A stretch of 44,134 bases of DNA from Candidatus Mailhella excrementigallinarum (GTDB lineage Bacteria; Desulfobacterota; Desulfovibrionia; Desulfovibrionales; Desulfovibrionaceae): positions 1-44,134 of the forward strand of contig CALUUZ010000022.1 of NCBI GenBank assembly GCA_944324075.1, read 5' to 3'. This document shows positions 25,403 to 26,014 of the stretch, piece after piece (the stretch's first letter is position 1; each line of letters begins with the position of its first letter). A model generated the notes under the pieces. It was not told where the DNA came from, made no database searches, and worked only from the letters and a program-made list of their open reading frames with translations. The translations under genes and the position numbers were made by a program.

Positions 25403-25470
25403 GATCCGACTCCATATTGTTTGCAGTGTTGCAGTGGGCTTCACGTTTTGCGACGGAAGTGCCCCCTCTC

Positions 25471-25487
25471 TTGCATGAGTCATGCCG
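25471..25487 (-). promoter_or_regulatory. Sigma-54 (-24/-12) promoter of islA
   Basis: On the minus strand the sequence CGGCATGACTCATGCAA has GG (25486-25485) and GC (25474-25473) with exactly 10 bp between, the defining spacing of sigma-54 promoters. The predicted start site, near 25461, lies about 60 nt before the islA ATG. Confidence 0.75.
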
Positions 25488-25574
25488 ATTAATATAATAT
25501 ACTGAATTAAATTGTATTTTGCTATTCCCTCCCATTTGTCGACGACTCTGTTGGAAGCAGCGGCGCGAAGGCGA

Positions 25575-25590
25575 GTCGCATTTGTGCGAC
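25575..25590. promoter_or_regulatory. Operator palindrome 1 (GTCGCA-N4-TGCGAC)
   Basis: A perfect inverted repeat, GTCGCATTTGTGCGAC. Its centre lies about 121 bp upstream of the predicted islA start site, a normal enhancer distance for a sigma-54 activator. Confidence 0.8.
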
Positions 25591-25625
25591 ACACTGGGAG
25601 AGGGAAGAGCATTTTACCGGAAACA

Positions 25626-25645
25626 GAGTCGCAGTTTTGCGACTC
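25626..25645. promoter_or_regulatory. Operator palindrome 2 (GTCGCA-N4-TGCGAC, extended)
   Basis: GAGTCGCAGTTTTGCGACTC is the same hexamer pair with the same 4-bp spacer, extended by two further pairing bases on each side. Its centre is 53 bp from that of palindrome 1, about five helical turns, so both can face the same side of the DNA. Confidence 0.8.
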
Positions 25646-25758
25646 AAGAGGCTGGCTGTCATGCCGGGAGGGCAGAGCAGAAAAATTAATAATATATTAT
25701 CCCAAAGAATTATATGAAAGATAAAAGTTTTTCCGAATAGTCGCCATTTTGAGATACA

Positions 25759-25774
25759 GTCGCAAAAATGCGAC
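25759..25774. promoter_or_regulatory. Operator palindrome 3 (GTCGCA-N4-TGCGAC)
   Basis: GTCGCAAAAATGCGAC is the third perfect copy. Its centre is about 120 bp upstream of the predicted start site of the TRAP operon, mirroring the position of palindrome 1 relative to islA. Confidence 0.8.
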
Positions 25775-25858
25775 CATTTCGAGCCTCCGGAAAAACCTGA
25801 TTGTATTCTATATGTTGAAATATAAGGATTTTTATATTTTTTTCAAGGCATAACCTGA

Positions 25859-25876
25859 TTGGCATTATTTGTGCAG
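25859..25876 (+). promoter_or_regulatory. Sigma-54 (-24/-12) promoter of the isethionate TRAP operon
   Basis: TTGGCATTATTTGTGCAG has GG at 25861-25862 and GC at 25873-25874 with 10 bp between. It precedes the binding-protein gene by about 130 nt of leader and faces away from the islA promoter. Confidence 0.75.
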
Positions 25877-26014
25877 GAAGGCGCATATATTTCGGCGGCG
25901 CAGTCGGAATGCCTCCGCGCTTGGCGAAAGGGAGAGCGACTCCCTTGGCGCGCCGGCTTCCCGCGCCCGGGCGCTGCCCGTATGGCCGGTACGTTCACAA
26001 CAGGAGACTGGATC

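Follow-up and report, generated by a model that had tools for sequence, protein, structure and literature searches.

The window (the whole 44,134-nucleotide stretch of Candidatus Mailhella excrementigallinarum DNA analysed here) carries islA (22904–25402, minus strand), which encodes a glycyl radical enzyme assigned as an isethionate sulfite-lyase and is separated by a 612 bp intergenic region from a divergent set of transport genes starting at 26015. Beyond islA on the minus strand lie islB (21400–22347, with an inferred start codon), encoding the radical SAM activating enzyme, and a gene for a PAS/AAA+ sigma-54 activator with a Fis-like helix-turn-helix (HTH), the probable regulator of the cluster (19956–21347, minus strand). 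In the forward direction, dctP (26015–27019; PF03480), encoding a TRAP solute-binding protein, is followed by a fused dctQM TRAP permease gene (27272–29143; PF04290 and PF06808), an amidohydrolase-family gene that is DVU2820-like by context (29180–30013; PF04909), and an MFS transporter gene of the metabolite:H+ symporter type (30029–31384; PF07690). We also noted a second TRAP operon (12397–15582), a sulfoacetaldehyde-reductase-like gene in the 15772–16923 region (535 bits against a cut-off of 700) and a TauE-type exporter (18105–18848), which together suggest a wider sulfonate island around islA.

The product of islA scored 1511 bits against the solved isethionate sulfite-lyase 7kq3 and 1225 bits against 6lon, which we take to be HpsG, a sulfopropanediol dehydratase. 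Inspection of the alignment with 7kq3 by eye indicated that the sulfonate-binding residues Arg191, Gln195, and Arg680 are kept, together with Phe684 and Thr314. The Arg/Gln/Arg set is common to 6lon, but this protein has Ile and Ala where IslA has Phe684 and Thr314, so only these two positions separate IslA from 6lon. In IseG, the sulfonate-binding residues are given as Arg187, Gln191, and Arg676, with Phe680 and Thr310 (PMC6453916). An HpsG identity was considered, given the fit of the NCBIfam model NF048011 (sulfopropanediol dehydratase HpsG; 1544 bits, cut-off 1000), and rejected, as the solved-structure scores and the two pocket residues favour IslA. NF048011 scores this highly on a protein that, among solved structures, is nearest to an isethionate sulfite-lyase, so it probably fails to distinguish HpsG from isethionate lyase; it accepts the latter far above its cut-off, and automatic annotation may mislabel islA. 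The original prediction, made from the letters of the sequence, had named both islA and its activase gene, and both assignments held, the first by the 7kq3 score and the second by matches to PF04055 and the glycyl-radical activase model TIGR02494. In the islA tree, the window gene groups with Desulfovibrio-type genes (85% best match among those listed), a weakly supported placement, and in genomes of the same genus islA is 77% identical and belongs to a cluster with a different gene order and another activator; horizontal replacement of the window islA is possible.

Within the intergenic region lie three exact copies of the palindrome GTCGCA-N4-TGCGAC, which we regard as predicted operators and list without strand: operator 1, proximal to islA (25575–25590), operator 2 (25628–25643), and operator 3 on the TRAP side (25759–25774). 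The distance between the first and second is 53 bp, as originally predicted and as confirmed from the coordinates, and that between the second and third is 131 bp. The equal spacer length in that prediction was likewise correct; its description of three identical operators applies to the six half-sites, all of which read GTCGCA, whereas the three N4 spacers differ. A search of 3,709,134 bases in the 51 contigs of the genome recovered these three intergenic copies and no fourth exact one, against expectations, from the window base composition, of 6e-5 exact matches in 612 bp and 0.38 genome-wide. When up to two mismatches were allowed, the genome held 102 matches per strand versus 439 for a reversed-pattern control, so the degenerate palindrome is not a common genomic word; the window alone held 4 such matches versus 3.2 expected, which leaves the exact form as the distinctive one.

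To place these sites among relatives, one genome per species was scanned, giving at least 80 islA loci, of which 78 were usable (L115 and L116, with the 5′ end of islA missing, were dropped; in four of the 78, the upstream sequence is shorter than 700 bp). The exact palindrome was present in 8 of these 78 listed loci from other genomes, within 700 bp upstream of islA in seven and at −1058 in the eighth (L051). With up to one mismatch, 31 sites occurred in 22 of the 78 listed upstream regions (700 bp upstream of islA), whereas 179 permuted half-sites averaged 0.12, with no more than 4 for any of them, and spacers of 0–10 other than 4 gave 0 or 1 site. With up to two mismatches, there were 65 sites versus a permuted mean of 2.1 and a maximum of 39, the latter for GCTGCA, itself near the wider motif. 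That wider form, G-N-Y-GCA-W4-TGC-R-N-C (N mostly T or A; Y = T or C), is a trained profile that converged and gave 122 hits in 52,262 upstream positions versus 8 in 743,508 downstream; it was trained on the same loci in which it was counted, and the untrained tests are the mismatch and permutation counts. The bases at half-site positions 2 and 3 vary among loci. In 51 of the 79 listed loci including the window (50 of 78 without it), the wider motif occurred in the 700 bp upstream of islA, and 43 of these loci have at least two sites. D. piger ATCC 29098 (L062) has three wider-motif sites of the GATGCA or a related type. Three or more strict sites lie within this distance in 28 of the 79 listed loci, and 28 have none there, some of which have a strict site upstream of dctP and others nowhere in the available stretch. 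In several co-directional clusters (L093, L096, L103, L105, and L121), the motif is found upstream of dctP, and a number of the distant wider-motif hits lie upstream of transporter, amidohydrolase, or activator genes; across the listed loci, predicted palindromic sites are thus conserved upstream of islA and of the transporter and amidohydrolase genes.

Short palindromes are common, and the window count at two mismatches is close to expectation, as would be seen if the three sites were chance or structural repeats (terminator stems or mobile repeat units) with no regulatory role. We consider this highly improbable, given the exact matches, their uniqueness in the genome, the same placement and spacer recurring in relatives, and the outcome of the permutation control, and rejected chance palindromes on the basis of the genome uniqueness and that control. 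Instead, because relatives keep similar palindromes at similar places, the three sites are very probably docking sites for the neighbouring activator.

The intergenic region also contains two oppositely facing elements with GG-N10-GC spacing, as originally predicted. The predicted sigma-54 promoter (−24/−12) of islA, CGGCATGACTCATGCA (25472–25487, minus strand, read from 25487 down to 25472), is the best GG-N10-GC element upstream of islA and scored 5.8 of 8, and that of the TRAP operon, TGGCATTATTTGTGCA (25860–25875, plus strand), scored 5.5 of 8; both are moderate matches, and the start sites are predictions. Measured from the operator centre to the first base of the −24 element, operator 1 lies 95 bp from the islA promoter and operator 3 lies 94 bp from the TRAP promoter, and the outer palindromes are about 120 bp from each predicted start, in agreement with the nearly mirror-symmetric layout first described. 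A second islA-side candidate, GGGCACTTCCGTCGCA, running from 25464 down, is also GG-N10-GC spaced (read by eye, without a separate scan); of the islA-side candidates, the 25487 element is the one at the operator distance seen in relatives. One rpoN was found in the genome. An integration host factor (IHF) bending site was considered and set aside, no match to the IHF consensus being present in the window.

Sigma-54 elements scoring at least 5 were found upstream of islA in 57 of the 79 listed loci versus 8 of 395 control windows inside islA (counts derived from fractions), and, as far as sequence can tell, both the promoter sequence (GG-N10-GC in a TGGCA/TGC context) and its position recur in relatives. 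On the islA side, the distance from operator to −24 element is 90–95 bp in 24 of 49 listed loci and outside this range in the other 25; four listed loci, D. piger among them, have 69–70 bp. On the divergent side, it is 90–125 bp in 16 of the 24 listed loci having such an element and a strict site, though relatives mostly have 103–122 bp and the window has 94 bp, so the mirror layout is not a family rule.

The spacing of the pair of sites nearest islA is 51–54 bp in 29 of 49 listed loci, 41–43 bp (four turns) in 4, and otherwise in 16, including spacings of 61–67 and 82 bp in deeper relatives (with the sites of L063 and L088 chosen manually for this count). With 16 of the 49 elsewhere, a general helical rule is not proven. 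Strict helical phasing was examined and is not claimed (R = 0.51 at 10.5 bp, rising to a broad maximum of 0.59 at 11.25; Rayleigh test on unique spacings, p ~0.11). On the islA tree, which comprises 74 of the 79 listed loci with spacing labels assigned by hand and leaves out L051, a third four-turn candidate, the four-turn spacing needs two changes, only one of which is forced by starred branches.

The gene beyond islB was originally described as a PAS-type sigma-54 activator, and the domains found in its product (PF00158, 216 bits; PAS_9; PAS_4) support that description, along with a GSFTGA sequence (GAFTGA-type loop) in the translation and a weak HTH_50 match (24.6 bits, cut-off 27). An activator of at least 45% identity lies 3.3–4.9 kb below the islA start in 29 of the 58 listed loci that reach that far, window included. 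Among the 55 of 79 listed loci with enough flank, the motif is present in 34 of 35 with a ≥45% activator (window included) and in 10 of 20 without (L112, L121, and L124, whose activators round to 45% but fall under the cut, were counted as without); Fisher's exact test gives p = 5.5e-5, which is descriptive only, as the loci are related. In L072, the activator is present and a strict site is absent, and in L085, L102, L108, and L117, none of which has the motif, the activator is only 43% identical. The original prediction tied its case to the palindromes being kept near islA in relatives with the same activator; the outcome favours the prediction through the wider motif in the 34 of 35 loci above, within the limit that the exact form recurs in only 8 of the 78 other loci. 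Separately, we looked by eye for co-variation of the activator HTH with the half-site letters; the recognition helix is nearly invariant and no rule was seen.

The genome encodes dozens of other sigma-54 activators, and a different DNA-binding protein (a repressor or another of these paralogues) might bind the palindromes, with the neighbouring activator working elsewhere. Consistent with this, ten long relatives have the motif without a 45% activator in the available stretch, although three of the ten have one just below, and the window itself holds a Crp-type regulator (8652–9344) and another sigma-54 activator (38564–40570), each at a distance of over 10 kb. Widening the pattern to GTYGCA-N4-TGCRAC or GDYGCA-NWWN-TGCRHC gained a single further site in the genome, GTTGCAATATTGCGAC (C30:15883–15898; L007:1501–1516), which lies beside a permease-like gene, 20 bp upstream of the gene for the closest activator paralogue (37% identity). 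We nonetheless consider another binding protein quite unlikely, given the co-occurrence of motif and related activator in all but one of the 35 long listed loci, the position of the sites upstream of sigma-54-like promoters at recurring distances and with no overlap, as is the case for activator sites, and the finding of no regulator among the nine other proteins scanned between 15772 and 31384 (ORF 17122–18090 left out). The neighbouring activator remains our preferred candidate.

At the scale of whole genomes, the wide pattern was present in 20 of 20 islA genomes (the best of 62 with a match), and in every one of them a site lay no more than 450 bp upstream of islA. These are 20 of the 21 best-scoring other genomes (G053 omitted), and several are also sources of motif-training loci. 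By hand count, 32 of their 68 wide-pattern sites fall in the 450 bp upstream of islA (reversed-pattern control 2), and the other 36 are away from the best islA. The wide pattern occurred in 3 of 19 genomes lacking an islA match (4 sites, control 4); these are 19 of the 20 such genomes listed, G018 omitted, out of 136 in all.

We noted two groups of sites away from islA. A further genus of the family has GTTGCA-W4-TGCAAC upstream of an orthologous dCache chemoreceptor gene in five genomes (L148, L152, L167, L168, and L169), with two sites 21 bp apart in L152 and L169. No sigma-54 element was found within 320 bp of the chemoreceptor sites in these five genomes, so another factor may read a similar word there, and we did not adopt the off-islA sites as one larger regulon. 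The second group concerns the amidohydrolase, a homologue of which accompanies islA in 44 of the 78 listed relatives' loci (27 of 40 with long flanks), several relatives having their own predicted operator before the islA-linked gene. In L151, L156, L158, and L154, an amidohydrolase 48–49% identical to that of the window has a wide-motif site ~300 bp upstream in all four; in the first three of these it adjoins a second, 63% IslA-like enzyme. An activase is also seen in L151 and L158, the latter having a 44% activator as well.

What was computed directly comprises the sites with their conservation and spacing, the promoter-like elements at set distances, the co-occurrence with the activator, and the gene families. 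These results point to a reading that we hold at a probability of roughly 0.85, in which the one-component sigma-54 activator encoded at 19956–21347 has the palindromes as its operators and would switch isethionate uptake and cleavage together. In the mechanism that we propose from these sequence features, the Fis-type HTH of the activator would bind the palindromes, one dimer to each; operators 1 and 2, five turns (53 bp) apart on the same DNA face, would serve the islA-islB promoter, and the single far site would serve the divergent promoter of dctP-dctQM-amidohydrolase-MFS, presumed to form one operon from dctP to the MFS gene. The AAA+ domain, ~95 bp from each −24 element on the upstream side, would reach the sigma-54 polymerase by looping and open both promoters. 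The PAS domain would sense the signal, probably isethionate or its product, such that the transport and cleavage genes come on together.

The joint switching of uptake and cleavage by one activator, as originally predicted, is therefore supported in respect of a common activator, while a single shared DNA loop is not necessary to it; most likely, "together" refers to a common activator that has separate operators at each promoter. The stronger alternative, in which one looped activator oligomer bridges sites 1, 2, and 3 and both promoters fire as a unit, is possible, yet we think it doubtful. The presence of at least three strict sites within 700 bp upstream of islA in 28 of the 79 listed loci would fit such an assembly, as would the proximal-pair spacing of 51–54 or 41–43 bp, which suggests contact on one DNA face. 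Among loci with three strict sites and an inner pair at 41–54 bp, however, the outer spacing varies from 73 to 232 bp, and in L073, L075, L078, L103, and L105 the transporter lies elsewhere or is co-directional and has its own site. Given that transporter regions placed elsewhere carry sites of their own, sharing is not needed, and one activator acting at separate operators suffices. More tentatively, the system may be an isethionate-sensing switch in which selection has kept the operator pair on one helix face (four or five turns), and in which the half-site letters (GTC here, GTT or GAT elsewhere) set it apart from paralogous sulfonate regulators whose operators, in the same cell, are nearly identical; we regard this extension as speculative and would not favour it at present.

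Sulfite set free when isethionate is cleaved can be respired to hydrogen sulfide by Desulfovibrionaceae of the gut and of sediments. With a defined activator, an operator consensus, and a promoter geometry, control of the cleavage step becomes directly testable, and the regulon becomes traceable by sequence. Palindromic sites ~100 bp upstream of a GG-N10-GC element, with activation by looping, are the general arrangement of NtrC/NifA-type sigma-54 promoters; the window differs from it in the operator GNYGCA-W4-TGCRNC and in having one divergent region that serves two promoters.

The closest precedent is the DVU2827 regulon. For five Desulfovibrionales genomes, Kazakov et al. (2015; PMC4641369) predicted that DVU2827 sites lie upstream of DVU2824 and the orthologous genes; they gave DVU2820 and DVU2822–2825, with predicted sigma-54 promoters, as the targets, and described the arrangement in D. 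desulfuricans and D. piger. The original prediction that no operator had been described for isethionate genes was thus too strong, as those sites concern the same gene set. The enzyme was named a pyruvate formate-lyase there, and the word "isethionate" has no occurrence in that paper. The D. vulgaris Hildenborough protein Q727N1, listed as DVU_2824 (PMC10920352), was later proven to be an isethionate lyase by Xing et al. (2019; PMC6453916), which ties the "pyruvate formate-lyase" regulon of 2015 to the enzyme's real function. We presume, from domain make-up and gene context, that the activator at 19956–21347 is the DVU2827 orthologue. Both systems have a one-component sigma-54 activator beside a glycyl radical enzyme, an activase, a TRAP or MFS transporter, and an amidohydrolase, and sites as well as sigma-54 promoters are predicted for both the enzyme operon and the amidohydrolase (PMC4641369). 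D. piger is among the genomes of that regulon, and the gene set of L062, which carries the wider motif, fits the paper's text (PMC4641369). What differs is that in the window islA and the transporter are divergent and all six half-sites read GTCGCA, the likeness being drawn from the text of the paper.

The IseG/IslA system shares the enzyme family and the TRAP association (PMC6453916; Burrichter et al. 2021, PMC8667426), and in B. wadsworthia a PAS-domain regulator gene adjoins islB (PMC6453916; PMC8667426). It differs in that no operator or promoter is described in the accessible text of these papers (PMC6453916; PMC8667426). Similarly, PMC9888536 reports up-regulation of the isethionate lyase and, in its accessible part, describes no operator. 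Set against these systems, the finding is well supported and concerns a regulon foreseen in 2015 under another enzyme's name, whose function, operator consensus, and geometry are made clearer here.
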